This document shows, piece after piece, positions 18,022 through 33,586 of a DNA stretch of 64,000 bases. The stretch comes from Frankia sp. AgB1.9 (GTDB lineage: Bacteria; Actinomycetota; Actinomycetes; Frankiales; Frankiaceae), in assembly GCF_016786355.1 (NCBI RefSeq), contig NZ_JADWYX010000037.1, forward strand, positions 16,175 through 80,174, given 5' to 3'. The notes beneath the pieces are model-generated. The model ran no database searches, was not told the DNA's origin, and saw only the letters and a program-made list of their open reading frames with translations. The stretch's first letter is position 1. The number at the start of each line of letters is the position of its first letter. The position numbers and the translations under genes were made by a program.

Positions 18022-18921
18022 TCAGCCGAGCAGCTGGGCGGGGACGAGCTGGTCGAGCTCGTCGAGGGACCACGGCGGCGACGTGCTCGGGTCGCCGCGG
18101 AAGATGGAGCGCACCTCCTCGTAGTCCGACCACACGCTCACCTTTCCGCCCCTCGCGTTGAACACGCGGCCAGTGACGTCCGAGGCGGCATCCGTGCACA
18201 GCCACGCAACGATCGGCGACACGTGCGTCAACGGGCCCGGGCCGGCCTTGGCCGCCTCGAACATCTCCTTGGTGATCTTGCCCTCCCGATACGCCTGTTC
18301 CATCTGCGGGATCACGACCTGGGACAGGCGCGTCGTCGCTCCGGGCGCGAGGCAGTTGGCGGTCACGCCCCTGCCCCGGTAGTCGTTGGAGATGCCCTTG
18401 ATCAGGGAGACCACGCCCCCCATCGCCGCGGCGAAGATCGGGTTGCCGACGGTGCCCCGCGCACCCTCCGACGTGGCGGCGATGAAACGTCCCCACCCGC
18501 GCTCGGCCATACCCGGGACGGTCTCCCGGGCGAGCCAGAACTTCTGTGAGAGGTAAAGGTCGATGAACCGGTGGTAGCTCTCGTCCGACGCGTACAGGTC
18601 GCCCGGCAGGATCGCGCCGGCGCAGCCGACGACGATGTCGACCGGGCCGAACGCCTGCTCGGCGATGCTCACCGCATGGGCTACCCCGTCCGACGTCGCG
18701 ACCGAGTCATAGCTCGCCTCCGCCTTGCCTCCAGCGGCCCGGATCTCCTCCGTCGTCGCGTCGGCGGCGGACGTGCTCTGCCCCTCGGCGAACTCGCTGG
18801 TCCCGAGGTCGTTGACGACCACCGAGGCACCCTGCGCCGCGAGGGCGAGAGCGCACGACTTCCCCACGCCGTTCCCGGCGCCGGTCACCAGTGCGACTTT
18901 GCCCTTCAGCCGTTCGCCCAT
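18022..18921 (-). CDS. SDR-family protein lacking catalytic Tyr and Lys
   Basis: 299 aa. ATG 18921 is preferred to an in-frame GTG nine bases upstream because GAGGTGAG then sits at proper spacing. A Rossmann nucleotide site TGAGNGVG (about residues 13-20) and DIVVGCAGA (the NNAG position) are present. The YxxxK active site is replaced: the aligned stretch reads NPIFAAAMGG, giving Phe163 for Tyr and Met167 for Lys, while the Ser-region ATSEG remains. It therefore probably lacks classical oxidoreductase activity and may be a binding, lyase-like or regulatory paralogue of 17-beta-HSD4-type SDRs. It is in an operon with a canonical SDR and a SnoaL-like gene upstream. Confidence 0.82.
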   Translation of the reverse strand: MGERLKGKVALVTGAGNGVGKSCALALAAQGASVVVNDLGTSEFAEGQSTSAADATTEEIRAAGGKAEASYDSVATSDGVAHAVSIAEQAFGPVDIVVGCAGAILPGDLYASDESYHRFIDLYLSQKFWLARETVPGMAERGWGRFIAATSEGARGTVGNPIFAAAMGGVVSLIKGISNDYRGRGVTANCLAPGATTRLSQVVIPQMEQAYREGKITKEMFEAAKAGPGPLTHVSPIVAWLCTDAASDVTGRVFNARGGKVSVWSDYEEVRSIFRGDPSTSPPWSLDELDQLVPAQLLG

Positions 18922-19039
18922 CCAACTCACCTCAATCTCGGGCGGCTGCTCCGCTGCCCGCTTCGAATTCGCACTAGGAGAGTTCCGACTTCGCGCCGCC
19001 AGCGCCCGCTTCTCGGCGGCCAGCGCAGAGGCCTTTCAC

Positions 19040-19825
19040 TCAGCCGAGCATGACGCCGCCGGCGTCGACGATGATCGACTGTCCGGTGATGGTGCGGCTT
19101 TCGTCGCTGACGAGAAACAGCGCGGCGTTGGCGACGTCGGTGGTCGAGGAGATATCGCGCAGCGCGGTTCCCGACAGGACGGTGGCTCGACGATCGTCGT
19201 AGTCGATGCCCTGTTCGGTGGCGGTGCGTCGCACCCAGTTCTGCCAGAGTTCGGTGTCGATGCTGCCGGGCACGAGGCAGTTGCAGCGGATCCCGTACTC
19301 GCCGACCTCGTTCGCGACGGTCTGGGTGAAGGCGCGTAGCGCTGTCTTCGCGGTGACGTAGTGGGTCTTGCGGGGCATCCCGCGGAAGCTCGCCGTCGAG
19401 GAGAAGTTGAGAATAACGCCGGTGCGGCGCTCCATCATCGACTGCTTGAGTACCTCACGGGTGCACAGCATCGCCGCCGTCACGTCGATGCCGATGGTGG
19501 CGTTCCAGTTCTCGAGGGTCTGCTCCCAGATCCAGGTGTCCTTGCCCGGAGCAGCCGCGTTGTTGCACATGATGTCGACCTGCCCGAACTCCGCCACCGC
19601 GCGGGCGACCATCGCGATCACGTCGCCCTCGTCGGTCACATCCGCGCGCATCGCGAGGGCGTCCGGCCCGCAGGCGGCCGCCGCCTCCCGCACGAGTTCC
19701 TCCCGGCGGGCGGTGAGCAGCACCTTCGCTCCCTGCTCGACGAAGAGCTTCGCCATCACGGGCCCGAGGCCGGTACTGGCACCGGTGATGATCGCGACCT
19801 TGCCGGCCAGGCGTCCGGCGGTCAT
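19040..19825 (-). CDS. Short-chain dehydrogenase/reductase
   Basis: 261 aa, ATG 19825 overlapping the stop of the SnoaL-like gene (ATGA). Classical SDR features are complete: TGASTGLG cofactor loop, an Asp at ADVTDEG, NNAA, Ser in FSSTAS, and the active-site HYVTAK (Tyr and Lys four apart). It should oxidise or reduce a hydroxyl/keto group with NAD(P). It is the catalytically intact partner of the degenerate SDR encoded directly downstream. Substrate is unknown; steroid, terpenoid or lipid alcohols are typical for this subfamily. Confidence 0.92.
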   Translation of the reverse strand: MTAGRLAGKVAIITGASTGLGPVMAKLFVEQGAKVLLTARREELVREAAAACGPDALAMRADVTDEGDVIAMVARAVAEFGQVDIMCNNAAAPGKDTWIWEQTLENWNATIGIDVTAAMLCTREVLKQSMMERRTGVILNFSSTASFRGMPRKTHYVTAKTALRAFTQTVANEVGEYGIRCNCLVPGSIDTELWQNWVRRTATEQGIDYDDRRATVLSGTALRDISSTTDVANAALFLVSDESRTITGQSIIVDAGGVMLG

Positions 19826-20334
19826 CGGGCGATCGCCCCGAGCAGCTCCCGGACGGTGCCGGCGAGCAGGTCCCTACCGGCGCCGGTGTCATCGAGCAGC
19901 CGATTGGTCCGGCGTCGCACCGCCCAGCCGCCGTCTTCACGGGTCAGGTCCCAGCGTGCTGCGCTGACCCGCCACAGGTAGTACCGCCCGTCCGCACTGT
20001 CGCGGCGCATGATCAGCGAATAGGTGATCGCGGTCGCCGTGTCACCGTCGACGTCGACCAGCGGCGGCCCCGCCACGTGGGCGACTCCAGCCCGGACCAG
20101 ACCCTGGTGCCCGTCCGTCCGCAACATCGCCGCCACGGCGGCCCGGCCCTCGTGGGGCGCGCCGTTCGCGTCCCAGTCGTAGACGCCGTCCTCCCGCCAC
20201 ACCGACGCGGCCACCTCGGCCAGCCCCGCGTCCGCCGCGGGACCGTACGAAAGGATCAACCGCCCGATCGCACGCTCATCCTCGACAGCACGTAACCGGG
20301 CCTCCAACGCGGCAAGATCTTCCGCGACACCCAC
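19822..20334 (-). CDS. SnoaL-like / NTF2-fold protein
   Basis: 170 aa from GTG 20334, six bases after GAGGAG; the frame runs open to 20508, but that extension is Arg-rich and unlike the family. The sequence (LEARLRAVEDERAIGRLILSY, a WREDGVYDWD-like segment, DGDTATAITYSLI, YYLWRVSAARWDL) fits the cone-shaped NTF2 fold of SnoaL_4-type proteins often encoded beside SDRs in aromatic or steroid catabolism. Such proteins can be isomerases, dehydratases or ligand binders; the sequence does not decide which. It is the first gene of the SDR operon, 131 bp from operator-like site A. Confidence 0.75.
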   Translation of the reverse strand: MGVAEDLAALEARLRAVEDERAIGRLILSYGPAADAGLAEVAASVWREDGVYDWDANGAPHEGRAAVAAMLRTDGHQGLVRAGVAHVAGPPLVDVDGDTATAITYSLIMRRDSADGRYYLWRVSAARWDLTREDGGWAVRRRTNRLLDDTGAGRDLLAGTVRELLGAIAR

Positions 20335-20465
20335 GAGCACCTCCTCATCCCGCGGCGGCACCAACCGCCGCTCAGACCGACTCCTCCGTCCGGCGTGGGC
20401 CTCGAGACGAAGCCCGCGACGGGAGCGGTCCGTCATCGGCCGCAGGCAGGGTCGAACTTGCATAT

Positions 20466-20487
20466 CGACGTCAACATTGATGTTGGG
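20466..20487. promoter_or_regulatory. Operator-like dyad, site A
   Basis: Core GACGTCAACATTGATGTTG (20467-20485) contains the perfect palindrome CAACAT-TG-ATGTTG (20472-20485). It lies between the divergent SnoaL-SDR operon and the EthD-like gene. The same core recurs at 26181, 29356 and 31319. Seen directly; regulator not proven. Confidence 0.7.
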
Positions 20488-20626
20488 TCGCGATGTGGGC
20501 CTGTCCACGGCCCGCGAACGGAGCGTACCTGAGGATCGGACAGTCTTGCATGCGTGTCCGATCCTCGGACATGATGCGCTCGCGTGGCGGCCCGCGCCAG
20601 CGGCACGGAGAGCGGAGGTAGCCCGG

Positions 20627-21358
20627 GTGATCAGAGTGAAGGCGGCATTCTTCAGCGCGACGGGTCCAGCGCCGGAGGGGGACGACGGCAGCTATCTGCG
20701 CTGGCACCTGCTCGACCACATGCCCGAGCAGTACCAGCTACCCGGACTCGTGTACGCGACGCGGTGGACCACCGACAGCGCCTACCTGGGCGCACGCATC
20801 GCCGGCACCGGCCCGCTGGCGGACGTCGCCAACGTCGTGAACTACCTCGTCGGGGACCCCGTCCAGCAGACCCACGACGACTTCCTGGAACTCGGCGTAC
20901 GCCTGGCCGAGGCCGGACGCTTCCCCATTCGCCGGCCATCGCTCCAGCTGCGACTGCTCGCGCTGCTGCGCTGGTACGCGGCGCCGCGCGCTCTGGTCGC
21001 CGCCGAGGTGGTGCCCTTCCGGCCACATCGCGGCATCGCCCTGATCATCGAGGAGCCGGCGTCCGACGACGTCTCAGACTGGCTGCGATGGCTGCACACG
21101 CAGCACTACCCGGAACTGCTCCAGGTGCCGGCCGTCGCCGGCGCCTGGCAGTACGGGTCGACCGACTTCTGGCGGCTCAACCCCGCTGCCGACGGCCCGC
21201 CGCAGTTCGTCACCGTCGTCTACCTCGACGACGATCCGCTGACGACCGTCAAGCTGCTCGCTCCGATCATCGAGCAGCGGTGGGCGTCAGGAGCCGTACG
21301 GCCACTCTTCGCGGGACCACTGAAATCCATGATCCAATGGGATGCGTGGACCAGCTGA
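20627..21358 (+). CDS. EthD-like / dimeric alpha-beta barrel protein
   Basis: 243 aa from GTG 20627 behind GGAGGT; longer upstream starts lack a site. Two repeats of a ferredoxin-like fold are suggested: YLRWHLLDHMPEQYQLPGL near the N-terminus and WLRWLHTQHYPELLQVPAV in the second half. Each has the His/Pro pattern of EthD-type domains. EthD proteins accompany P450 or oxygenase systems and some act as small decyclases or chaperones; no catalytic role can be assigned here. It is divergent from the SnoaL-SDR operon with site A between them, so joint control is likely. Confidence 0.6.
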   Translation: MIRVKAAFFSATGPAPEGDDGSYLRWHLLDHMPEQYQLPGLVYATRWTTDSAYLGARIAGTGPLADVANVVNYLVGDPVQQTHDDFLELGVRLAEAGRFPIRRPSLQLRLLALLRWYAAPRALVAAEVVPFRPHRGIALIIEEPASDDVSDWLRWLHTQHYPELLQVPAVAGAWQYGSTDFWRLNPAADGPPQFVTVVYLDDDPLTTVKLLAPIIEQRWASGAVRPLFAGPLKSMIQWDAWTS

Positions 21359-21380
21359 CCGTCCTACGTCCAGGCCCGGC

Positions 21381-22184
21381 CTACCGAGCGGCTCGCCAGG
21401 GTCGCTCGACCCCGGGAAGAAGTCCGGGCACCACGTAACGCTCAACGAACTCCCGCTTCGCCCCGTCCGAGCGCTGCGCCCACGGCGGGCCCAGCAGGAG
21501 CAGCGCCACGGTGTTCATCCACCGGCTCGTCTCCCGAAGATCCAGATCCGCCCGGAGCTGGCCCTCCGCCCGCCACTGGCGCAAGAGGGGACCCAAATGC
21601 TGGTGAAACGCATCGACGACAGCCTCGGAGCGCAGCTCCAGCGAGGTGACCATCCAGCGACTGTCCGTCGAGAACAGTGCCTCGTTGAGCGGATCACCCG
21701 CCACGAGGCCGACCGCATGCATGATCAGATCGACGACGGACCGGGCCGCGTCGTCCGGATGCTCCAACATCCCGAGCACCCGCCGCATCCCGGCGTCGAT
21801 ACGACTGAGAACCACACCGAGGACCAACTCGTCGCGGGACCTGAAATACCGATAAACCGTGGACCTCACGACCGCGGCCTCTTTCGCCACCTCGTCCACC
21901 GTCAGCCGCGTCGTTCCCCGCGCGACCAGAATCCGCGCCGCCGCCGCCACCAGGCGACGCCTCGCCTCATCGTCATCCACGAGCGCCGTCTCGCTACCCC
22001 ACCGCACCCGACCTTCCGGACTCAGCCCGCTGGCAGTTCTGGTCTCGTCGGACGGCACAGCGTCCGACTCTACGGAACCCCACACGGGCAGTCGTGTGCT
22101 CACGACGCGACACGCATCGCCCGCAGCCACCCCCGGGCACTGCCCGCTGCGACTGGGGTCTTGACGATCAGGCCGCAAGATCAT
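21381..22184 (-). CDS. TetR family regulator (paralogue of the one at 29445-30155)
   Basis: Up to 267 aa from ATG 22184; the first ~65 residues are poorly conserved and no start has a clear ribosome site, so a start such as GTG near 22103 is possible. The helix-turn-helix is DDDEARRRLVAAAARIL then VDEVAKEAAVVRSTVYRYF. The C-terminal half (GDPLNEALFSTDSRWM, LRADLDLRETSRWMN, GAKREFVERYVVPGL) closely resembles the TetR at 29445-30155, so the two arose by duplication. It is divergent from an esterase gene with only 36 bp between, and is a candidate controller of the shared dyad sites. Confidence 0.85.
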   Translation of the reverse strand: MILRPDRQDPSRSGQCPGVAAGDACRVVSTRLPVWGSVESDAVPSDETRTASGLSPEGRVRWGSETALVDDDEARRRLVAAAARILVARGTTRLTVDEVAKEAAVVRSTVYRYFRSRDELVLGVVLSRIDAGMRRVLGMLEHPDDAARSVVDLIMHAVGLVAGDPLNEALFSTDSRWMVTSLELRSEAVVDAFHQHLGPLLRQWRAEGQLRADLDLRETSRWMNTVALLLLGPPWAQRSDGAKREFVERYVVPGLLPGVERPWRAAR

Positions 22185-22220
22185 TAACCGAGCAATCGGC
22201 GTTCCAGACAGGAGAATTGG

Positions 22221-23195
22221 GTGACCCCGATCGAAGGCCTTCCGTCGCTACACCTCCCGGCGCGAGACATTCCCATTCCGTCGTCGGTCAGCGCCGAGGC
22301 ACGAGCGATCCTTGCCGCGCCTCGGCAGGCAGCAGCCGCCTATCCGCCGCCTGACGATGTGCCCGCCTGGAAGGCGATGATCGCCGCCCAGGACGCGGCG
22401 GTGGCGGCGATGGTGGACAGCCGGCCGGTCGACGCCGCGGTGACCGTCGAAGACGCCGAGTTCGACGGCGTTCCGGTCTACGTGGTCACCCCGCCTGGCG
22501 CCACCGAGGGCCGGGTCTACCTGGAACTGCACGGCGGCGCGCTGATCCTCGGCGGTGGCCTGATCTGCCGGGGGATGGCTGCACGTACCGCGGCCCGGAT
22601 CGGGGCTCAGGTCTGGTCGGTCGACTACCGGATGCCGCCCGACCATCCGTACCCGACGCCGCTGAAGGACTGCGTCGCCGTCTACCGAGCACTGCTCAAG
22701 GACCACCGGCCCGAGCAGATCGTCATCGGCGGCGGTTCCGCCGGCGGCAACCTTGCGGCGGCGCTGCTGCTACGGGCACGCGACGAGGGTTTGCCACTGC
22801 CGGCCGCCCTCGTGCTCAACACGCCGGAGGTCGACCTCACCGAGTCCGGCGATTCCTTTCAGACGAATCTTGGCCTTGACCCGGTGCTGCAGCGAAGCCT
22901 CATGCCGGTAAACCTGCTCTACGCCGCCGGTCACGACCTGACCGACCCCTACCTCTCCCCGCTGTTCGGCGACTTCACCAAGGGCTTCCCACCCACCATG
23001 CTCACGACCGGCACCCGGGACCTGTTCCTCTCGAACACGGTGCGGCTGCACCGCGCGCTGCGCGCCGCAGGCATCAGGGCCGACCTGCATGTCATGGAAG
23101 CGGCCGGCCACGGAGGCTTCCTCGGCATGGCCCCCGAGGACACCGAACTCGACCGCGAGATCCGCCGCTTCGTTGACGCCCACTGGGCAGACTGA
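22221..23195 (+). CDS. Alpha/beta hydrolase (esterase, HSL-like)
   Basis: 324 aa, GTG 22221 after CAGGAGAATTGG. The oxyanion segment HGGALILGGG, nucleophile GGGSAGGN (Ser), acid GTRDLFL (Asp) and AAGHGGFLG (His) give a full triad; the HGG box is followed by Ala where the classic motif has Gly. It hydrolyses carboxyl esters, perhaps opening a lactone or removing an acyl group in the neighbouring catabolic route. It is divergent from the TetR at 22184, a common repressor-target layout. Confidence 0.87.
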   Translation: MTPIEGLPSLHLPARDIPIPSSVSAEARAILAAPRQAAAAYPPPDDVPAWKAMIAAQDAAVAAMVDSRPVDAAVTVEDAEFDGVPVYVVTPPGATEGRVYLELHGGALILGGGLICRGMAARTAARIGAQVWSVDYRMPPDHPYPTPLKDCVAVYRALLKDHRPEQIVIGGGSAGGNLAAALLLRARDEGLPLPAALVLNTPEVDLTESGDSFQTNLGLDPVLQRSLMPVNLLYAAGHDLTDPYLSPLFGDFTKGFPPTMLTTGTRDLFLSNTVRLHRALRAAGIRADLHVMEAAGHGGFLGMAPEDTELDREIRRFVDAHWAD

Positions 23196-23457
23196 AGCCT
23201 CGCCGCAAGACCCGTACCGAGATCCAGGAACTGGCGGAGTCCGACCTCGGCGGTGACGGGCAGCCGGTCGGTCCGGCCGTGGATGGACCGGTAGCGGGTT
23301 CCCGCCGTCCCGTGGCCGCGCCTGCTGGAGTGTCACCCCGATCGGCGCGGAGATGCTCCCTGATCAGGGTGACGAGTGCGCAGACGGGTAGAGCGAATTC
23401 TGCGCCCTCGCATGCCGAATGTGCGGGGATTGCCACCGAATGGGTGGTGATGACACG

Positions 23458-26125
23458 GTGAGATCGGAGAACGGGTTTCCGCCTGCCGATCTGTTCGATC
23501 AGATGCAGATCGGCCTGGCGATCATCGGCGACGACGGTCACCGTGTGATAAGGGTAAATCCGGCCATCTGCCGGGTCCTCGGCCGCAGCGAGGCGGAACT
23601 CGTCGGGGCAGTCTGGGACAGCTTGGTTCACCCGGACGATCGGGACCCGCAAGGGAAGGGTGGCGGGCTCCACGCGGCCTCGATACCGTCCGGCGGACAG
23701 AAAGTCGTCCGATTCGTACGACCAGACAAGTCTCTGGCGCAGGTTCTCGCGACATCGGCGCCTATATCCTGCGATCGCGGACGCAAACCCTGTCGTATCG
23801 TCCAGTTTCAGGACGTCACCCAGGAGATGGCCTCGTATCACCATCTCAAGCTGCTGCTCGACAACACCCGAGTCGTCCTAACCCTCATTGACCGCCATGG
23901 CCGCAGTGTTCTCAGCGAGGGAGCGCAGGCGAGAGGCGAATACGCGCACCGGCGATCGATCGCCCGGTGGACCTCCATCCTCGAGGCCTACGCCGAGTTT
24001 CCCGAGCCGATGGGGCTGGCCCGCGAGGCGTTGGCTGGCAGGCCAGCCTCGGGCGTGTACGAGGCGGCCGGGTTGTGGCTGGACAGCCACGCTGTGCCGA
24101 TCTTCGGTGCGGACGACACCGTGGATTCGGTCGCGATCATCACCACCGACGTGACCGAGCGGGAACTCGCCCTCTCCCTGCTGCGTGCCCAGTCCGCCGG
24201 GCAGGCGATCGTCGCCGAGCTCGGCCGGTACGCGCTTGACGACCCCGAACCGGCCAGAGTGTGGCGTCGCGCCGCCCGAGCGATCCGGGAGCATCTCCAG
24301 GCCGATCGGGTGACACTCCAACAGACGCGGCCACGGGACGGCGGGAGGCCGCTCGTCGTGAGCGCCGACGCGGGCTCGGCGCGCTCACGCTGCCCGCCGA
24401 CGCGCCCCGTCGTGGCTCGTGCGCCCGCTCTCGGCGGAGCGGCCGCGCCGGATCAACCTCGCTCCTCCTCGCCGTTGTCCCGACCGGTGGGACGGCCGGA
24501 CGACCCCTGCGCCACACTCACCGTCCAGCGCGCCGCGCCCGACGCCTTCACCGCTCGCGAGGTGGAGTTCCTGGAGGCCGTCGCGACCGTGCTGGCGGCC
24601 GCCGACGCGCGGTTCCGCGCCGAGGGACAGGTACGCCATCAGGCCGTGCACGACGGGCTGACCGGCCTGCCGAACCGGACCGCCCTGCTCGACAAGCTCA
24701 ACCGCGCTGGCCCGCGTTCGGCCGGGACGAAGCGTCGGACTGTTGTTCCTCGACCTCGACGGCTTCAAAATCATCAACGATTCGCTCGGCCACCAGGCCG
24801 GGGACCAGCTTCTCCGCGAGGTCGCCGACCGGCTGCGAGCGGCGGTGCGCCCCTCGGACACCGTCGCGCGCCTTTCCGGAGACGAGTTCGCCGTACTCTG
24901 CGGCAACGTCCGTACGCTGGCGGCGGTCCAGGGGGTCGCGGACCGGATCGTCGCCCGCCTCGCGGTCCCGGTGGTCCTCGCCGGCCGGCCGGCGACCGTC
25001 ACCGCCAGCCTCGGGATCGCGCTGTCGGGCCTGGGACCGTCGGGCGACAGCGACCCGGCCGGCGGCCTTGACCCGGCTGGCAGCCTGGGCCCGACCGGAG
25101 CCGACGGTCTTCTCCGCGCCGCCGACCTCGCCATGTATGCGGCCAAGCGCCAGGGCCGCGGCCACATTGCGCGCTTCGACGAGAACATGCGGTCCGACGT
25201 ACGAACCCGCCTGGGCATCGAAGGCGATCTTCGCGAGGCACTAGCCCGCGAGGAACTCCGGCTCTGCTACGAGCCGCTGACGACCACGACCGGCGACGTC
25301 GCCGGCGCCGAGGTACTGATCCGCTGGCACCACCCCGACCGCGGGCTCCTCACCCCTGAGGTGTTCCTCCCCGTCGCCGACGAGACGGGGCTGACTGCTC
25401 CGCTCGGCCGATGGGTCCTCGAGACAGCCTGCCGGGAGGCCAGCCGATGGCCCCCACGGCCGCCGGACGCACCCACACCCCGCCTCGCGATCGGCGTCTA
25501 CGACCGCCAACTCCACGACGAACGCTTCGTCGCGGACGTCCGCGCGGTCCTCGACGCCACCAACACCGAACACCGGTACCAGCTATGCCTCGAGATCGCC
25601 GAGAGCGCGCTCCCCCGCGACGACACAGCCGGGGAGGCGACTCTGCGCACGCTGCACGAGCTCGGCATCACCGTCTACCTGGACGACTTCGGGTTCGGGC
25701 CCGTCTCGCTGAACCGCTTGTGCGAGCTGCCGATCGACGGCGTGAAGACCGACCGACGACTCGTCGCCGGCCTGACCAGCAACCCAGCCGATCACGCCCT
25801 CATCGTCGCCGTCATCCAGCTCGCGCATGCCCTCGACCTCACCGTCATCGCCGAAGGCGTCGACACCCCCGACCAGGCCTCCGAACTCGACCGCCTCCAC
25901 TGCGACTTCGTCCAGGGCTCGTACCTCGCGCACCCAGCCAGCCATGACGCTCGGCCGCCGCATCAGCCGCGCCACGCAGTCACAGGTCAGCTGAGCGCGA
26001 GCGATCCGGAGTTAAAGGCCAGATCGCGTCAACACAGCAGGTGTCCCCGGCGCTGGGCCACGCCGCTCAGCCGGCCCGGGAAGGGCGCGTGTTCCGGCCG
26101 GGACTGCACGCCTTTCGCGACCTGA
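23458..26125 (+). pseudogene. PAS-GGDEF-EAL cyclic-di-GMP protein, frameshifted
   Basis: Start taken at GTG 23458 (ATG 23440 is an alternative). Frame 1 (to about 24,725) encodes PAS domains (LFDQMQIGLAIIGDDGHRVI; LTLIDRHGRSV), a GAF-like segment and the GGDEF-domain start HDGLTGLPNRTALLDKLNRA. The rest continues in another frame from about 24,728: LFLDLDGFKIINDSLGHQAG, active loop LSGDEFAVL (SGDEF variant), MYAAKRQGRG, then an EAL domain to about 25,940 and a ~60-residue unconserved tail. One inserted or lost base near 24,700-24,735 joins the halves. The EAL part is degenerate: AEVLIRW for EALLRW, Asn missing (LAIGVYDRQL), though DDFG and KTDR remain. Either a true pseudogene or a sequencing error in a gene whose EAL domain is inactive. 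Confidence 0.85.
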
Positions 26126-26178
26126 ACTGGCCCATTGTCTCGGCGAGCGGGCACGCGATATGGTCCCCGAGATCGAGG

Positions 26179-26200
26179 TTGACGTCGACATTGACGATAG
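26179..26200. promoter_or_regulatory. Operator-like dyad, site B
   Basis: TTGACGTCGACATTGACGA starts at 26179, 194 bp before the solute-binding protein start. It matches the GACGTCRACATTGAY core of sites A and C. A second GTCGAC with GACGTCACC follows at 26204-26215 in inverted orientation to GGTTGACGTC. Confidence 0.6.
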
Positions 26201-26393
26201 ATGGTCGACGTCACCTGTCGGCAGCGACGGTGGGGCAGCGACGGCGCAGTGCGTCCGCGCACGCCTTCATGCCGCTGGGGGCGCTCCCGTGCGTTCGGCG
26301 CCGCCCCGCGTCGCTCAGGCCGTGACAACGCCATCCGAAATCGTTCACGGATGCGAGACGGCGACGACATCCCAGCCAGGACTGAGGAGAAAC

Positions 26394-27647
26394 ATGACCA
26401 GGGGTCGAGGTAAGTGTCAGGTGTCAGCGACGACCGCGGCGCTCGCATTGGCGGCCGTTGCGGCAGGATGTTCATCCTCGGCGGCCAACGGCGCCAACAG
26501 CTGCGTCTCGCCGGGCGTTACCGCAAAGCAGGTGAAGGTCGGCTTGCTCTACCCAGACACAGGCCTTGTGTCCAACGGTCTTTTATCCGTTCGCGCCGGG
26601 GTCACCGCCCGTATCGGCCTGGCAAACGCCTCCGGCGGGGTGCGCGGTCGTCAGATCATGCTGGTTCCTGAGGACGATCACTCCGATCCGGAAGCCAACC
26701 TGTCCGCCGCACGCCATCTGGTGGAAAAAGACGGTGTCTTCGGCATCGTCGAGGAAACGGCGGTGGCCTCCGGCTCGGCCTCATATCTTGACCAACAAGG
26801 CATTCCGGTGACCGGGCTGGCGGTCGAGCCCGTATGGGCCGAACGGCCGAACATGTTCACCGACGTGCTCCCCTTCAACGGCCCGGCCGTCACCACGTTC
26901 GGCCTGTTCGGCAAACAGCAGGGCGCCACACGCGCATTCGTCCTCCAGGACACGAGTCTGGCGACATCGCAACGGGTGACGTCCTCATTCGCCGCCAGCT
27001 TCGCGTCGCAGGGCATCGCCCTCGTCGGCAACGCCGACTACTCAACGAACACGTACAGCGCGGATACGATCGCCAAACAGATCATCGCCGCCAGGGCCGA
27101 CGCGATCATCGGCGGAGTCTCCGCATCGAGTCTCGCCCAGATTCTGGTGGCGGCCCGGCAGAGGGGCGCGCAGATCAAACTGACTCTGGCGCTCAGTGGC
27201 TACGACCAGCGGCTTGTTCAGCAGTACGGCAGCCAGGTTGCCGGCATGTCCGTTCTGCTGACCTACGCACCGTTCGAGTCGAACTCACCGGCACTTGGCG
27301 CCTACAGAACAGCGATGGCCGCCTATGCCCCCGAGCTCGTTCAACCGGACGACACGGTCGCGCTTACGGGCTATGTGACCGCCGATCTGTTCCTGCGTGG
27401 ACTTGAGGCCGCCGGGCCCTGCCCGACCAGGGCGGCGTTCATCCAGGCGCTCCGTGCCGTGACGGACTATCGCGGGACCGGGCTACTCCCAGGACCAGTG
27501 GACCTCCGGAAGGAGGCCGGTGGTTCCCAGACGTGCTACTACTTTGTCCAGGTCAACAGGTCGGGCACCGGCTTCGATGCCGTCCGGCAGAACGACGGTC
27601 CGGGCGACGGCCAGTGGTGCGGGAAGGAACTTCCCGCGACGGGGTAG
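26394..27647 (+). CDS. Orphan ABC solute-binding lipoprotein (LivJ-like)
   Basis: 417 aa, ATG 26394 behind GAGGAG; the longer open frame upstream has no site. Signal peptide with lipobox AAGC (Cys26) and a type-1 binding-protein fold (VKVGLLYPDTGLVSN, LANASGGVRGRQIMLVPEDD, LVEKDGVFGIVE). It should be surface-anchored and capture a small hydrophobic or acidic solute. No permease or ATPase is adjacent, so it either uses the fused LivHMG/LivF system 18 kb away, another importer elsewhere, or acts as a sensor. Operator-like site B is in its upstream region. It converges with a second binding protein. Confidence 0.88.
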   Translation: MTRGRGKCQVSATTAALALAAVAAGCSSSAANGANSCVSPGVTAKQVKVGLLYPDTGLVSNGLLSVRAGVTARIGLANASGGVRGRQIMLVPEDDHSDPEANLSAARHLVEKDGVFGIVEETAVASGSASYLDQQGIPVTGLAVEPVWAERPNMFTDVLPFNGPAVTTFGLFGKQQGATRAFVLQDTSLATSQRVTSSFAASFASQGIALVGNADYSTNTYSADTIAKQIIAARADAIIGGVSASSLAQILVAARQRGAQIKLTLALSGYDQRLVQQYGSQVAGMSVLLTYAPFESNSPALGAYRTAMAAYAPELVQPDDTVALTGYVTADLFLRGLEAAGPCPTRAAFIQALRAVTDYRGTGLLPGPVDLRKEAGGSQTCYYFVQVNRSGTGFDAVRQNDGPGDGQWCGKELPATG

Positions 27648-27722
27648 GGCAGGCTGGAGGTGGCCGCGGCGCGGTTTCGTCAGTCGGGCGGCGGCGGGAC
27701 CACCGACCAGAAGGCCGGGCGA

Positions 27723-27771
27723 CGGGAACCGGCGGAGGCGGAGGCCCCTGGCCTCGCCCCGCCGGCTCCCG
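27723..27771. terminator. Bidirectional terminator-like hairpin
   Basis: CGGGAACCGGCGG (27723-27735) pairs with CCGCCGGCTCCCG (27759-27771) with one mismatch. A GGCC/GGCC mini-stem is in the loop. It lies between convergent binding-protein genes, so it can serve both. Confidence 0.55.
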
Positions 27772-27779
27772 CCTTCCGA

Positions 27780-29090
27780 TCAGTTCTCGATCGGCGTCGC
27801 GCCCACGAGCTTGTAGGTTCCCGGGTCCCCCTTGGCGTCGAGGACCGAGACGATGCCGCCGCGTACACAGGTTGACGGCGCACTGGGATCGGCCTTGCCG
27901 TTGCACCGGAAACCAAGCCCCAGCGAGCCGGGAATCTCGCGTTCCGGCATCTTCTTGAACGTGGCGATCACGGACTGCGCGGTGACGTCGCCGCCGATGC
28001 CCTGAAGCGCTGTCTGGAAAGCGGAGACCTCGGTGAAGGCGGTCATACCGATGGCCCGGCTCGTGTCGATTCCGTTGCCATAGGCCTTCGCCACGGCGTT
28101 GTAGAGCCGTGTCGAGGGATTGTCCTCTCCGATGGGCACGTTCGCGGAGATCGTGATTCCCTTGAGCTGGTCGCCGGGCACGGCCTTGCGGGTCGCGTCC
28201 GTGATACACGCCGAGATGGCGGAGATCGGGCCGGTGTACCCGACCGCGCGCAGCCCGTTCAGGGCGCTGATGCAGAACGAGTCGTTCCCCAGGATGTAGA
28301 CGAGCCCAGGGTCGCCGTGGGTGAGGTTCTGCATCTGCGGTGTCATGTCCGCGGTCCCCGGCGGGACGGGGACGACATTGAGAGCGATGCCGGCCTTCTT
28401 GAACAGCGCGGGCGCGGTGTTCTTCAGTCCGTCCAGCGCGGCCGGAACATCGATCACGATGTAGCTGACCTTCTTGAGGCCGGCGGCCTTCGCCTGCTGC
28501 AGCGGAAGGTTGATCGCGCCGAAGTTTCCGTCCGAGATCGTGAAGGTCGACTCGGTGTCCCCCATCATCGCCTGGTTGACGCCGGCGTAGACGAGCGTGG
28601 GCACGTGGGCCGCGTGCAACGGCTCCCAGATGCTCGCGAGCACGGGAGACGCCCCGATGATGACGGCGACGACGTTGTCCTCCACTATCTGGTTCGCGCA
28701 GTCGGCAGCCCTGCTCGGGTCGGCCGCGGATTCGCAGGTCACCAGCTCGATGGGCCGCCCGCCGATCCCCGACCTGCGCTCGTTCAGGTACTTCACGGTC
28801 GCCTTGGCGACGTCGAACTCGATCGAGTTGTCGGCGATCTGGCTCTTGCCGTCCGAGACCAGCCCGACCCGCACCGGAGCGCCCGACGCACGCGCGATCG
28901 GGCCGAGCAGGTCGTTGGCACTCGCGGAGGCCTGCGGGCTCGCGGGCGTCTTGTCCCCGCCGCTGCCGCAGGCGGCGCCGAAGACGAGCAGCGCGGCCGC
29001 CACGCCGGCCGCGGCGCCTAACCGGCGGCCCGACGGGCGCCTACCTAATTGCCTTCGGAGTGGACGGTCTGGCGAGATCTCGTCTCTCAC
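27780..29090 (-). CDS. Orphan ABC solute-binding lipoprotein (LivJ-like)
   Basis: 436 aa from GTG 29090. A long basic n-region (RRQLGRRPSGRR) precedes a hydrophobic core and lipobox GAAC (Cys41). The mature domain is a type-1 periplasmic binding fold (PVRVGLVSDGKSQIADNSIEF, VKYLNERRSGIGGRPIELVTCESAADP, SFCISALNGLRAVGYTGP). Like its convergent neighbour it lacks adjacent permease genes. The upstream region contains operator-like site C, though 264 bp from this start, so the leader is long or the true start is different. Confidence 0.87.
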   Translation of the reverse strand: MRDEISPDRPLRRQLGRRPSGRRLGAAAGVAAALLVFGAACGSGGDKTPASPQASASANDLLGPIARASGAPVRVGLVSDGKSQIADNSIEFDVAKATVKYLNERRSGIGGRPIELVTCESAADPSRAADCANQIVEDNVVAVIIGASPVLASIWEPLHAAHVPTLVYAGVNQAMMGDTESTFTISDGNFGAINLPLQQAKAAGLKKVSYIVIDVPAALDGLKNTAPALFKKAGIALNVVPVPPGTADMTPQMQNLTHGDPGLVYILGNDSFCISALNGLRAVGYTGPISAISACITDATRKAVPGDQLKGITISANVPIGEDNPSTRLYNAVAKAYGNGIDTSRAIGMTAFTEVSAFQTALQGIGGDVTAQSVIATFKKMPEREIPGSLGLGFRCNGKADPSAPSTCVRGGIVSVLDAKGDPGTYKLVGATPIEN

Positions 29091-29444
29091 GGCACCTGCC
29101 TCGTTTCTGTGGTGGTCGTCTTCTGGCGTCGCCGAAACGGCTGTCGGCGGTAAAAGGAGGGGAGGAACGCCGGCGGCGCGGCATTTCCGGATGTCATCCG
29201 GCGGTCACGGGGCAGGTCAGTGCCGTCCGGCATCGCCCGACCGAGCCGAGGGCAGGTGGCACCGGCGTGGCTCAACCTGCCCTGGCCCACGTCGTCGCCG
29301 TGACCTCTCTGTGCGTCCGGCTGACGTGCTGGTGACGGTAGCCATCTTCGAGTATGACGTCAACATTGACTATTGACCCCCAGGGATCGCCGACGCCTGG
29401 GCCTCGATCCCGGGTGCGCCACCACTGATTGCTCTTGCTCTAGC
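29091..29444. other. Intergenic region with site C
   Basis: About 350 bp between the binding-protein start and the stop of a TetR gene. No protein-like frame seen. Its only notable element is the operator-like dyad at 29354-29375. Confidence 0.5.
29354..29375. promoter_or_regulatory. Operator-like dyad, site C
   Basis: ATGACGTCAACATTGACTAT begins at 29354 and is followed by TGACC. It shares 15 contiguous bases (GACGTCAACATTGAY) with site A. Confidence 0.65.
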
Positions 29445-30155
29445 TCATTCCCGGGCTGGGACGAGGGCACGGACCAGGTAGCGGTCGAGGAACTCGCGCT
29501 TCGCCTGCGACGACAGCTCGAGCCACGGCGGCGTCATGAGCGTGATGGAGACCAGGTTGATCCACCGTGTCGTCTCGCGGAGGTCGAGGTCTGCGTGCAA
29601 CTGCCGATCGGCCTGCCACCGCTCGAGCAGCGGCGAGATCTGGCGGTGCATCGCGTCGACGATGGGTTCGGAGGCGTACTCCAACGCCGCGACCCATGAT
29701 CGGCTGTCGGCGGAGAAGAGCGCCTCGTTGAGCTGGTCACCACCCACCAGCCCGATTGCCTTCAGGATGAGCTCGGGGATCGACTGGGCCGCGTCCCCGG
29801 GCGATCGCAGGGAACGCACCACGGCGCCGAGTCCGGAGTCGATCCGGCTCAGCAGCACGGCGAGGATGACCTCCTCGCGCGTGCCGAAGTACCGGTACAA
29901 GGTCATGCGTGAGACGCCGGCCTCGGCGGCGATGTCCTCGGTCCGGATCTTCGCCGTGCCACTGCGGGCGATGCATCGCGCGGCCGCCGCGATCAGGCGG
30001 CGGCGGGCCTCGTCGTCGTCGCCGAGCGCGCTGCCGGTCCCCCATCTCGTGCGCCGATTCGCTCCCGCGGGCGTTGCTCCGGTCACGGCAACGATGCTAC
30101 GGACGGGGCCCAGGCGGCAGATCCTCCCGACCGGGTTGCCGGCTGCCGGCCCCAT
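29445..30155 (-). CDS. TetR family regulator (paralogue of the one at 21381-22184)
   Basis: 236 aa if started at ATG 30155, which overlaps the stop of the LLM gene by one base (TGATG); GTG 30086 (213 aa) is an alternative. Helix-turn-helix: DDDEARRRLIAAAARCIA, TEDIAAEAGVSRMTLYRYF. The ligand domain (GGDQLNEALFSADSRSWV, LHADLDLRETTRWIN, QAKREFLDRYLVRALV) parallels the other regulator almost residue by residue. It is in an operon with the LLM oxidoreductase, whose promoter region holds dyad site D. That arrangement fits autoregulation and makes it the best candidate for binding the four dyads. Confidence 0.87.
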   Translation of the reverse strand: MGPAAGNPVGRICRLGPVRSIVAVTGATPAGANRRTRWGTGSALGDDDEARRRLIAAAARCIARSGTAKIRTEDIAAEAGVSRMTLYRYFGTREEVILAVLLSRIDSGLGAVVRSLRSPGDAAQSIPELILKAIGLVGGDQLNEALFSADSRSWVAALEYASEPIVDAMHRQISPLLERWQADRQLHADLDLRETTRWINLVSITLMTPPWLELSSQAKREFLDRYLVRALVPARE

Positions 30156-31024
30156 CACCGGTCCACCAGGTCGGCGTTCACCGCGGCGAGCGCCTCGATG
30201 AAGTCGAGGTATTCGCCGAGGGTGTCGCACGCGTGGGTCACCGCCACGACGGTCGCCCCGGCGGCCGCCGTGGCGGCGAGGATGTCCTGGGTCTGGCGGG
30301 GTTCCCTGACGGGGTCCAGCCCGCCGGCGGGCGGGAGCACCACGGTGAAGTCGGCCGGCAGCTCGACCTGGCGCAGCCACTGTTCGGCCTGTGCCGGCTT
30401 CACGGCGAAGGGGCACCAGCCGTCGCCGAGCGCGGCGGCTCGGCGCAGCGAGCGCAGGGTGCGGCCGCCGACCCAGATCGGGACGTGCGCCTGCACGGCA
30501 CACGGATCGACGACCAGGTCACCGAAAGCGTAAAAGTCGCCCTGGTAGGACGGCTTGGATGCGGACAGCGCGGCGCGCAGGGCACGAAGCGCGTCGTCGC
30601 TGCGGGGCCCCCGGTCGTCGTAGGGCGCGCCGATCAGGTCGAACTCTTCCCGCAGCGTCCCGACGCCCACTCCGAGGATCACCCGGCCGTCGCTCACCAC
30701 GTCCAGCGTCCCGTAGCGCTTGGCCAGCTCGAGCGGGTGGTGGTAGGGGAGAACCAGGACGTTGGTAGCGAACCGGATCCGACGGGTGCGGGCGGCGAGG
30801 TAGCCGAAGGTGGCGAGCGGGTCCCAGTAGCGGGCGCCGCGGCGGGCGAGCTCGGCGGCCGGCAGCGCGATGTGCTCGCTGCACGTCAGGTGGTGATAGC
30901 CGAGCCGGTCGGCCGTTTCGGCGACCCGGGCCACGTCCTCGACCGACGCCGACTCCTCCCAGGCCCCGTGCGCCCCGGGGGTCATCGTGACGACCGGTGT
31001 GCCAATTGCCAGCTGCACCTTCAC
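30155..31024 (-). CDS. LLM-class (probably F420-dependent) oxidoreductase
   Basis: 289 aa, ATG 31024. Luciferase-like TIM barrel: ETADRLGYHHLTCSEHIALP near the N-terminus, IRFATNVLVLPYHHPLELAK in the centre, then RVILGVGVGTLREEFDLIG and VPIWVGGRT. This pattern is that of actinobacterial TIGR03619-type F420-dependent members. They move hydride to or from diverse substrates using coenzyme F420, with FMN as an alternative. Its stop overlaps the TetR start, so both are co-translated. It is divergent from a CoA ligase with site D between. Confidence 0.87.
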   Translation of the reverse strand: MKVQLAIGTPVVTMTPGAHGAWEESASVEDVARVAETADRLGYHHLTCSEHIALPAAELARRGARYWDPLATFGYLAARTRRIRFATNVLVLPYHHPLELAKRYGTLDVVSDGRVILGVGVGTLREEFDLIGAPYDDRGPRSDDALRALRAALSASKPSYQGDFYAFGDLVVDPCAVQAHVPIWVGGRTLRSLRRAAALGDGWCPFAVKPAQAEQWLRQVELPADFTVVLPPAGGLDPVREPRQTQDILAATAAAGATVVAVTHACDTLGEYLDFIEALAAVNADLVDR

Positions 31025-31380
31025 GAGTCCTCAGCCTTCGCGTAGCTACTGCGTCCCGCAGGAGTAGACGGTCTGGTCACGGTCGCGTCCGTCGGCACGG
31101 GTCCGAGGGTCGTATCGCCCGCGTGATCCAGCGCCGACGCAGGTGGCTCCTGGCGGCACCTCCTAGGCATACTCGGCCCCGGCGTGACATGTGACGGTAC
31201 GCTAATGCTGTAACATCTCGTCTGGCAAGAGCCAGCCAGCCGCCCTTCCATCGGGTGCCGCCAGGGCCGGCCCCCAGCGGCGGATCACGGCGTTCGAGCT
31301 GTTGACGAGTCTCTACGTTGACGTCAATCTCGATGTCAACCGAGCGTGAGATTCCCTGGAGCCCGATAGGAGACAGCCTC
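31025..31380. other. Divergent promoter region, LLM-tetR / CoA ligase
   Basis: About 355 bp with no credible gene. It holds dyad site D (31317-31340), an extra GTTGAC direct repeat at 31301, and an AT-richer patch (31190-31215) that could contain a promoter. The ligase ribosome site AGGAGA lies at 31369-31375. Confidence 0.5.
31317..31340. promoter_or_regulatory. Operator-like dyad, site D
   Basis: Perfectly paired outer arms GTTGAC (31317-31322) and GTCAAC (31335-31340), with inner GTCAATCTCGAT. Aligned to site A it matches over GACGTCAA and GATGT. It lies 40 bp before the ligase start and within the LLM-tetR upstream region. Confidence 0.7.
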
Positions 31381-32838
31381 GTGGAGTCCGAGGTAAGCAA
31401 CGCACGCCGCATCCGGCAGCTCGCCGAGGAGCACCCGGACGAGATCGCGCTGCGGCACATCGCGCTGGACGGCGGCGAGCCGGCGTTCACCTGGGAATGG
31501 CTGGACCGGCGGTCGAGTCAGCTCGCCGCCGCGCTTCTCGCGCGCGGACTCGACGTGGGCGACAACCTGGCCCTCGGACTGCGCAACACACCCCAGTTCG
31601 TGCTGGCCGCTCTGGCGGCCTGGAAGGTCGGCGCGGTCCCGATCCCGGTGCGCTGGGACGTTCCCGACTGGGAGCTGGCCCGCATCCGGGAAGTCATCGC
31701 GCCACGGATCTTCCTGGGCGCCGCCGACCTCTCATGGATCGACGCGACGGAGAACGACCCCGTTCCCGACCTGCCCGACCGGGTCTCGCCACAGGTGAAC
31801 GGCATCTGCAGCAGCGGATCGACCGGTACACCGAAGGTGATCCTGACCAGCCGGCCGTCGGTCTACGACGCCAGGCTGGCGACACCCTTCGCCCAGTCGT
31901 GGGGACCGGTGCCCCTCCCCCAGACGATCCTCGTGCCCGCGCCCATGTACCACGCCAACGGCTTCACGACCCTGCACAACCTGCTCGGCGGCGACCGACT
32001 GGTCGTGATGGAGAAGTTCGACGCGGCCCGCGTCGTCGACGTCATCGAACGGCACCGGATCAGCACCTTCACCGCCACCCCGACGATGCTGCAGCGGATC
32101 GCCGACCTGCCCGGCATCGAGAGCCGCGACCTGTCCAGCCTCGACTGGTTCATGCAGGGCGCGGCGCCCATGCCGGCCTCCCTGGTGCACCGGTGGGCGG
32201 GCCTGATCGGCGCCGAGAAGATCGTCATGGCCTACGGCATGACCGAGGGACTCGGACTCACCGCGCTACGCGGCGACGAATGGATGACCCACCAGGGCAG
32301 CGTCGGCCGCGGCTACGCCGGCACCGAGGTACGCATCCTCGACCCCGAGGGCACCAGGCTGCCCGCCGGCGAGATCGGGGAGATCTACCTGCGCTCGACC
32401 TCGTCCCGCGGCTACCAGTACCTCGGCAACGTCGCCCGCATGAAGGCCACCCCCGACGGTTTCCAGACCGCCGGTGACATGGGCTACCTCGACGCCGACG
32501 GCTACCTGCACCTCATCGACCGGCGCGTCGACCTCATCATCACCGGCGGCGCCAACGTCTACCCCGCCGAGGTCGAAGCCGCCCTCATCGACCACCCCGC
32601 CATCGCCGACATCGTCGTGGTCGGGCTGCGCGACCCCGAATGGGGCCGCCGCGTCCACGCCATCATCGAACCCGCCCACTCCAGCGACCCCCCAGCCGCG
32701 GCCGACGTCATCGGGTACGCCAAAAGCCGCCTCGCGCCCTACAAGGTTCCGAAGACCATCGAGATCGTCGACGCGATCCCCCGCAGCGAAGCCACCAAAG
32801 TCAACCGCGGCGCCCTCGTCGCGGCCCGTGGCGGCTGA
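31381..32838 (+). CDS. Acyl-CoA synthetase / AMP-dependent ligase
   Basis: 485 aa from GTG 31381, seven bases after AGGAGA; upstream in-frame starts overlap operator site D. ANL-superfamily motifs: P-loop SSGSTGTPKVI, YGMTEG, GDMGYLDADGYLHLIDR, and the C-terminal KVNRGAL Lys region. It activates a carboxylic acid as acyl-AMP then acyl-CoA. It is shorter than the other two ligases here. Co-regulation with LLM, SDR and binding-protein genes through the dyads suggests it primes the imported substrate of that set. The acid substrate is unknown. Confidence 0.88.
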   Translation: MESEVSNARRIRQLAEEHPDEIALRHIALDGGEPAFTWEWLDRRSSQLAAALLARGLDVGDNLALGLRNTPQFVLAALAAWKVGAVPIPVRWDVPDWELARIREVIAPRIFLGAADLSWIDATENDPVPDLPDRVSPQVNGICSSGSTGTPKVILTSRPSVYDARLATPFAQSWGPVPLPQTILVPAPMYHANGFTTLHNLLGGDRLVVMEKFDAARVVDVIERHRISTFTATPTMLQRIADLPGIESRDLSSLDWFMQGAAPMPASLVHRWAGLIGAEKIVMAYGMTEGLGLTALRGDEWMTHQGSVGRGYAGTEVRILDPEGTRLPAGEIGEIYLRSTSSRGYQYLGNVARMKATPDGFQTAGDMGYLDADGYLHLIDRRVDLIITGGANVYPAEVEAALIDHPAIADIVVVGLRDPEWGRRVHAIIEPAHSSDPPAAADVIGYAKSRLAPYKVPKTIEIVDAIPRSEATKVNRGALVAARGG

Positions 32839-32905: not shown

Positions 32906-33586
32906 TCAGGGCAGGACAGGCCGCGGGCCGCCCTGCCTTGCCTCGTCAGCTCGACTCGGATCGAGGTGAGCGGTTGCCGGGACCGTCGGACCGGCAGACA
33001 GCGCCGGCCCGATCCACCGCCGAAGGAACCTGCGAAGATCGTCGCCGGAGCGCGGCTGCTCCAGTGGCGCGATGACCATCGACTGGATGATCCGTAGCAG
33101 GAACTCTACGAGTTCGTCGAGCGCTCGGTCGTCGTAGCCGAGGGCGGCCCAGTCGATGCGGGTGTCCACGAGGATCATCCGGCATCGGGCGATGGCGGTC
33201 GACGTCAACATCTGGCGACTGAAGAGCTCCGCCCGTCCGCTGGTGAGCAGCAGCGTCAGGAACAACTCGTTCGGCAGCTGCTCGATGACGTAGGCAACCG
33301 CCTCGACAACCATGTCGATCGGGCTGTACGCCCTTGCGACGACCGCCCGCGTACGCGCGACCCAGTCGTCGAGTGCCAGCTCGGCGACGCCGCCGAACAG
33401 GTCCTCGGTGCTCATGAAGTAGCGGTAGATGGTCCGCCGGGTGATGCCGAGCTCAAGCGCGACGCCGGACAGGGTGGTCCGCGCTGGTCCTTCCCGCTCG
33501 ATGCACTGCACGGCCGCGTCAAGGATGCGCCCGCGCGCCTCGCCGTCGTCTCTGGGCGGGGAGCCGCCCCAACCCCTACGCCCCAA
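32906..33586 (-). CDS. TetR family transcriptional regulator
   Basis: 226 aa; the apparent start at 33586 is TTG, with weak GGAAG upstream, so the exact N-terminus is uncertain. Helix-turn-helix: EARGRILDAAVQCIEREG, LSGVALELGITRRTIYRYF. The C-terminal domain (AYVIEQLPNELFLTLLL, DELVEFLLRIIQSMVIAPLEQ) resembles mycobacterial/rhodococcal TetRs found near lipid- or steroid-catabolic genes. It is divergent from the P450 that begins the 12.5 kb catabolic run, with a 13-bp palindrome between, and is the likely local repressor. Confidence 0.86.
   Translation of the reverse strand: MGRRGWGGSPPRDDGEARGRILDAAVQCIEREGPARTTLSGVALELGITRRTIYRYFMSTEDLFGGVAELALDDWVARTRAVVARAYSPIDMVVEAVAYVIEQLPNELFLTLLLTSGRAELFSRQMLTSTAIARCRMILVDTRIDWAALGYDDRALDELVEFLLRIIQSMVIAPLEQPRSGDDLRRFLRRWIGPALSAGPTVPATAHLDPSRADEARQGGPRPVLP

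Follow-up and report, generated by a model that had tools for sequence, protein, structure and literature searches.

Four related dyads (sites A to D) lie in a 64,000-nucleotide stretch of the genome of Frankia sp. AgB1.9 (contig NZ_JADWYX010000037.1, positions 16,175 to 80,174; the whole of this stretch is called the window below). Sites A, B and D, together with the weaker site C, are probably operators of a dispersed catabolic regulon, and the protein that most likely binds them is a repressor encoded outside the window, the TetR-family protein TetR5, which is present in three copies in the genome (C183, C23 and C276). The element itself is a 22-bp dyad made of four 4-bp TYGA-type boxes that follow each other in 6-bp steps. 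An earlier note on the same DNA had recognised the shared dyad and interpreted it as the mark of a local regulon for uptake and degradation, governed by one or both of two TetR-family proteins encoded in the window (TetR1 and TetR2). The shared operator and the catabolic and uptake functions behind it are borne out here. The regulon is dispersed rather than local, and the regulators proposed were probably the wrong ones.

The dyads and their anatomy

The dyads A to D are real. The core pattern given in the earlier note, GACGTCRACATTGAY, has 26 matches with up to three mismatches in the window (5.1 expected), a number reached by none of 100 shuffles. The 9.79-Mb genome has three exact copies of this 15-mer, all of them in the window (sites A, B and C), and site D differs from it by three mismatches; with up to one mismatch there are 16 matches in the whole genome, where a reversed control pattern has none. 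Motifs were sought from random starts in the intergenic DNA of a part of the window and of 24 loci that surround TetR1/TetR2 relatives (an initial attempt with crudely defined upstream DNA had been dropped, having returned coding-like repeats, and low-information solutions of the later search were left unused). A held-out 24-bp model, trained on 202 intergenic regions from other genomes only, was then applied to both strands of the window. It ranks D (25.7), B (25.6) and A (23.0) as the top three; the next match (20.9) is coding, and the best score in 30 first-order shuffles was 19.4. Site C scores 14.8 (rank 18) and is not among the 114 matches listed from the whole-genome model scan, in which site B has an E-value of 0.029.

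All four sites are intergenic according to our own gene finder, whose starts are approximate and whose intergenic calls vary with the thresholds. The hexamer GACGTC begins where the earlier note placed it at A, B and C (20467, 26181 and 29356) and one nucleotide further on at D (31320 instead of 31319). The palindrome CAACAT-TG-ATGTTG is found in site A, and the arms described for site D were located at 31317-31325 and 31332-31340. Site D is ~40-47 bp upstream of the start of an acyl-coenzyme A (CoA) ligase gene and ~290 bp upstream of a luciferase-like monooxygenase gene. The case of C as a promoter site is divided, as it lies ~260-345 bp before the gene for binding lipoprotein 2 but also just past the 3' end of the TetR2 gene. 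Counterparts of A can be aligned before the SnoaL operon of two other genomes, G006 (L039:10705) and G003 (L042:6964), and an 88%-identical ligase of G006 is preceded by a site as well (L039:4946), at a distance different from that of D.

The anatomy of the element was read from 63 distinct intergenic sites of at least 22 bits (lower-scoring sites and duplicates were dropped). In either half of the dyad, the information is concentrated in positions 2-5 and 8-11; there is a weaker preference for A/T at positions 13-15 and almost nothing further out. Note that the information inside the 24 columns is partly selected, because the 63 sites were picked with a 24-column model, and that the fall-off outside these columns is not subject to this selection. 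As the boxes are themselves near-palindromic, several overlapping dyads can be read in one site, and therefore different dyads had been described at A and D. The unit is a TYGA-type box every 6 bp, and the single-dyad reading TTGACRTCAA implied earlier was superseded by the four-box reading once the 63-site anatomy was available.

Sites across the genome and the genes behind them

For a scan of the genome, a model (R1) was built from sequence alone out of 26 sites in other genomes; the matrix used to select these sites had itself been exposed to regions of the own genome. The 27 best distinct places have E-values from 0.008 to 0.45. Single E-values are weak, and therefore the evidence rests on the pattern of the places. 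Of the 23 that could be classified (no sequence had been fetched for the other 4), 16 are intergenic and 7 coding, whereas the intergenic share of those loci is 17% (binomial P 5e-8). Looser gene-finder thresholds gave 13 of 21 intergenic places, with that on C191 called coding; with the later ones, which gave 16 of 23, it is intergenic. The intergenic places are spread over nine contigs, i.e. C209 and, beyond the neighbourhood of TetR1 and TetR2, C55, C63, C99, C183, C191, C204, C276 and C278. C183 and C209 make up 1.8% of the genome, yet they carry 9 of the 27 places.

The genes behind the sites are mostly catabolic. The enzymes encoded by genes that face intergenic sites include AMP-binding ligases, a CoA-transferase III, a thiolase, luciferase-like monooxygenases, a cytochrome P450 and amidohydrolases; SnoaL proteins and regulators of the TetR or IclR families are encoded there too. 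Peripla_BP_6 genes for binding proteins face site B and the sites on C191 and C204, as well as two lower-ranked places (C183:41889 and C255:40900). Related genes stand behind sites in other genomes, and the element can be found in other genera too. The genome of the window (G000) has 101 Peripla_BP_6 and 67 Amidohydro_2 matches.

Candidate regulators

TetR5 emerged when the genes at the fetched loci were clustered: a site lies at most 400 bp before the gene in five of the seven members of its cluster. The protein is present with at least 63% identity in 20 of 35 genomes of the same family; the remaining 15 have nothing TetR5-like at E 1e-20. Co-occurrence was assessed on 89 places in 31 genomes of the family, taken from the best-scoring matches listed and uncorrected for descent. 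The split into intergenic and coding matches took the place of raw counts of model matches per genome, which in many genomes are dominated by coding (GTCGAC)n repeats. An intergenic match is present in all 18 genomes with TetR5 and in 4 of the 13 without it. By place, 50 of 66 are intergenic with TetR5 versus 5 of 23 without (Fisher P 9e-6), and 41 of 57 versus 5 of 23 if seven training sites and two identical copies are excluded (P 5e-5). No training site came from 10 of the 18 TetR5-positive genomes. The five intergenic matches in TetR5-negative genomes are near-perfect GTCGAC or GTCGAT-type repeats. The helix-turn-helix of TetR5 is near-invariant in 24 sequences.

The association extends beyond the family. 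In a scan of named genomes, which took in 80 of 125 TetR5 relatives, an intergenic site of at least 19 bits was found at 19 of 21 loci with TetR5 of at least 58% identity and at 17 of 59 loci with relatives of 38-52% (10 of these 17 in Actinomadura or Thermomonospora). Five of the 21 loci belong to organisms outside the family (Actinomadura craniellae, A. physcomitrii, Nocardia jinanensis and two Acidimicrobiia); all five have an intergenic site of at least 20 bits, and their best scores were matched by 2, 0, 0, 0 and 0 of 200 shuffles. Several loci with Thermomonospora and Actinomadura relatives (49-50% identity) share repeated variant sites like TTGACATCGACGTCAGTATAGACT at similar distances (L262, L265-L268, L270 and L272).

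Upstream of the TetR5 genes themselves, a stretch of at least 19 bits lies within 600 bp in 12 of 29 cases (15 at 18.9 bits); in the TetR1/TetR2 group the proportion is 3 of 26 (P 0.02). Duplicated upstream sequences were dropped from these counts, as was L079, which has no upstream DNA. Self-regulation of TetR5 is only modestly supported, given the weaker contrast with the other genes at these loci (see below).

TetR1 appears to have an operator of its own. An alignment of SnoaL promoters revealed, beside site A, a 34-bp inverted repeat, AGGATCGGACA-N12-TGTCCGATCCT, in six of the seven. Among 58 genomes the exact pattern is present in G000, G001, G003, G019, G028 and G033, with one differently spaced case in G014; with mismatches allowed, which covered fetched loci only, G006 and G032 are added. 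The eight repeat-bearing genomes (G014 aside) are the very genomes that possess TetR1 of at least 72% identity, and the copies inspected are flanked by genes of that cluster, such as the SnoaL and EthD-like ones. Because of this co-occurrence, the repeat is most likely the operator of TetR1. At four loci (L224, L225, L231 and L232, on contig C380 of G028 and contig C215 of G019), two SnoaL genes flank one EthD-like gene, with a 34-bp repeat on each side.

A local regulon in which the dyads are read by TetR1, TetR2 or both is quite unlikely, even if the presence of the group goes along with sites (14 of 14 genomes with a member, 8 of 17 without) and several TetR2-like loci are ringed by four-box sites (e.g., L047, L048, L049, L051, L052 and L053). 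Intergenic sites are present in G002, G017, G020 and G026 (3/3, 2/3, 1/3 and 2/3 of the classified matches, respectively), where no gene of the TetR1/TetR2 group was found at E 1e-10. Conversely, 10 of 24 loci around members of the group (L040, L041, L046, L050, L055, L056, L059, L060, L061 and L062) have no intergenic site of at least 19 bits. The recognition helix of TetR1 also differs from that of TetR2. On the evidence of absence, of the few upstream stretches and of the 34-bp repeat, both proteins were rejected as universal readers; TetR2 may be an additional local reader of the dyads. A different regulator, e.g., the IclR protein encoded on C183 divergently from the thiolase gene, or one whose gene is unlinked to the sites, is rather unlikely. 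In two genomes the thiolase and IclR genes have a site between them, but the IclR group was absent at E 1e-25 from G014, G019, G026, G028, G032 and G033, all of which except G014 have an intergenic site, and the IclR protein of C183 was therefore rejected as a universal reader. The IclR group fits the distribution of sites with 13 of 13 genomes against 9 of 18 if remote matches (32-41%) are included, and with 9 of 9 against 13 of 22 for close matches only. An unlinked gene is compatible with the co-occurrence data and would also be in keeping with the weakness of the signal for TetR5 self-regulation. Finally, (GTCGAC)n is easily formed at a guanine-plus-cytosine content of 70% and encodes Val-Asp runs, and many raw model matches are indeed coding or perfect repeats. 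An artefact of base composition or coding is nonetheless very improbable and largely refuted by the intergenic enrichment, by the four-box anatomy with its variable spacer bases and by the shuffles.

Several observations weigh against a dispersed regulon read by TetR5, which we nevertheless prefer. With respect to the sites, individual genome-wide matches are weak (best E 0.008), coding (GTCGAC)n repeats produce false matches, and several matches on C183 are orthologous to G001 training sites, the top match being identical to one of them. The dyad of site A is aligned in only three of seven loci, compared with six for the adjacent 34-bp repeat, and D and the site before the G006 ligase do not align, so that D is conserved in presence and not in place. 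With respect to the regulator, no classified match was obtained in G007 and G014, which have TetR5, or in G013 and G021, which lack it. The co-occurrence is not corrected for genome size either, and TetR5-positive genomes are mostly large. The presence of TetR1/TetR2 and of IclR correlates with sites as well, albeit less closely, and the candidates compared were those encoded near sites. The loci compared are rich in sites, and 228 of the 902 remaining genes in them also have a stretch of at least 19 bits within 600 bp upstream (P 0.08 against the TetR5 genes); a site stands directly before TetR5 in only two of the five loci outside the family. As to the assignment of the 34-bp repeat to TetR1, the two are on different contigs in G019 and G028.

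The window and known counterparts of the system

The features of the window are listed in Table 1. The SnoaL_4 gene is the first gene downstream of site A on the minus strand. The gene at 20627 had been labelled EthD-like in the earlier note, a label that finds no support, as the gene matches no Pfam or NCBIfam family at E 0.001; the name is kept here for convenience. The acyl-CoA ligase gene has a GTG start with a ribosome-binding-site-like stretch. A third TetR-family gene (32906-33586, minus strand), whose product is 29% identical to TetR1, lies beside a P450 gene; its ~47% relatives adjoin TetR1 paralogues in L043 and L044.

Table 1. Sites, inverted repeat and genes in the window, counted from its first nucleotide (a full stop marks features without strand)
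Feature	Position	Strand	Remarks
Site A	20459..20480	.	Four-box dyad TGCA-TCGA-TCAA-TTGA, 6-bp steps; intergenic, flanked by the SnoaL gene (-) and the 20627 gene (+)
Site B	26173..26194	.	Four-box dyad TCGA-TTGA-TCGA-TTGA; ~200 bp upstream of binding lipoprotein 1
Site C	29348..29369	.	Weaker dyad TCGA-ATGA-TCAA-TTGA
Site D	31312..31340	.	TCTA-TTGA-TCAA-TCGA plus fifth box TCAA
Inverted repeat (34 bp), probable TetR1 operator	20532..20565	.	Between the SnoaL and EthD-like genes, beside site A
Short-chain dehydrogenase	18022..18930	-	Pfam
Short-chain dehydrogenase	19040..19825	-	Pfam
SnoaL_4 protein	19822..20361	-	Pfam on open reading frame 19822-20508; start from gene finder
Conserved protein (EthD-like of the earlier note)	20627..21358	+	Gene finder
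TetR1	21381..22007	-	TetR_N; start from gene finder
Binding lipoprotein 1 (Peripla_BP_6)	26394..27647	+	Start inferred from lipoprotein signal; gene finder 26532
Binding lipoprotein 2 (Peripla_BP_6)	27780..29090	-	Peripla_BP_6 match
TetR2	29445..30158	-	54% identical to TetR1
F420-dependent luciferase-like monooxygenase	30155..31024	-	TIGR03619 above cut-off
Acyl-CoA ligase (AMP-binding)	31381..32838	+	Match on open reading frame 31318-32838

It is possible, though we propose it tentatively, that TetR5 and its paralogues constitute a master system of catabolic repressors in large plant- and soil-associated actinobacteria, in which the individual islands keep their local TetR proteins. If so, one four-box operator would link many dispersed islands for uptake and degradation, among them a part of the expanded set of binding proteins, and a promoter could combine a global with a local signal, e.g., at site A, where the two elements are ~50 bp apart. 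In the dispersed regulon that we prefer, TetR5 would be released by a small molecule, probably a substrate or a CoA ester from the pathways, and regulators encoded locally would contribute as well, with TetR1 acting on the 34-bp repeat next to A. The work offers a named, testable operator and a named candidate regulator for the many catabolic genes of these actinobacteria that are unassigned, and illustrates that the neighbouring regulator, however obvious, can be the wrong guess. The same motif could help to find the genes controlled by the TetR5 orthologues of Actinomadura, Nocardia and Acidimicrobiia, and the ligand of TetR5 would hint at the compounds degraded by these bacteria. No description of this operator or of TetR5 was found in the literature searched, which left out many subscription journals; the kind of regulation is already known, and it is this regulon that is without a description in that literature.

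TetR5 is most likely an EthR/Rv0078-like repressor of the TetR family and the best candidate for the reader of the dyads. Its N-terminal TetR_N domain (PF00440) scores 52.2 bits (cut-off 24), and the AlphaFold2 model (mean predicted local distance difference test score, pLDDT, 80.8; residues 1-30 below 50) has the all-helical TetR fold, with 480 matches in the PDB at E 0.001 or better, in the order EthR, FasR, EilR and Rv0078. EthR of Mycobacterium tuberculosis is the best fold match, yet the two proteins are only ~20% identical in the fold alignment, and TetR5 is not a sequence orthologue of EthR (E 5e-7, 33 bits, another sequence matching better). None of the known NCBIfam TetR equivalogues passed its cut-off among the matches at 1e-6 (best ScbR_bind_reg, 53.7 versus 150), and the KstR model gave no match to TetR5 at 1e-6. 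The EthR operator also contains TCGA/TTGA boxes, with a spacing of ~10 bp and not 6, and EthR is said, in the title of one study, to octamerize cooperatively on its operator. The KstR and KstR2 regulons of mycobacteria share with the present one the control of catabolic genes by TetR-family proteins, and KstR2 structures match TetR5 remotely (4e-6).

The closest precedents for the operator itself come from two other members of the family. The operator of Rv0078 (EthR2) of M. tuberculosis is 21 bp long and is occupied by two dimers, which sit on opposite faces with a 7-bp stagger (PMC6016246), and CprB of Streptomyces coelicolor binds a 22-bp site as a cooperative dimer of dimers and is described as most likely a pleiotropic regulator (PMC4150764). 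The dyad described here, with 22 bp and four boxes, has the length (21-22 bp or more) and the space for staggered half-sites that a dimer-of-dimers operator requires. By analogy with Rv0078 and CprB, two staggered dimers per operator are the likely binding mode, and four boxes every 6 bp would suit it: boxes 1 and 3 would take one TetR5 dimer, and boxes 2 and 4 a second one on the opposite face of the DNA, shifted by 6 bp. The operator of CprB is of the same length as ours but of different sequence, and CprB is of the gamma-butyrolactone receptor type. Rv0078 resembles TetR5 in family and in operator length, and its structures also match the TetR5 fold (ranks 29-43); it differs in its 7-bp stagger and in the one divergent gene pair described as its target, whereas the boxes reported here follow a 6-bp step at sites dispersed over the genome.

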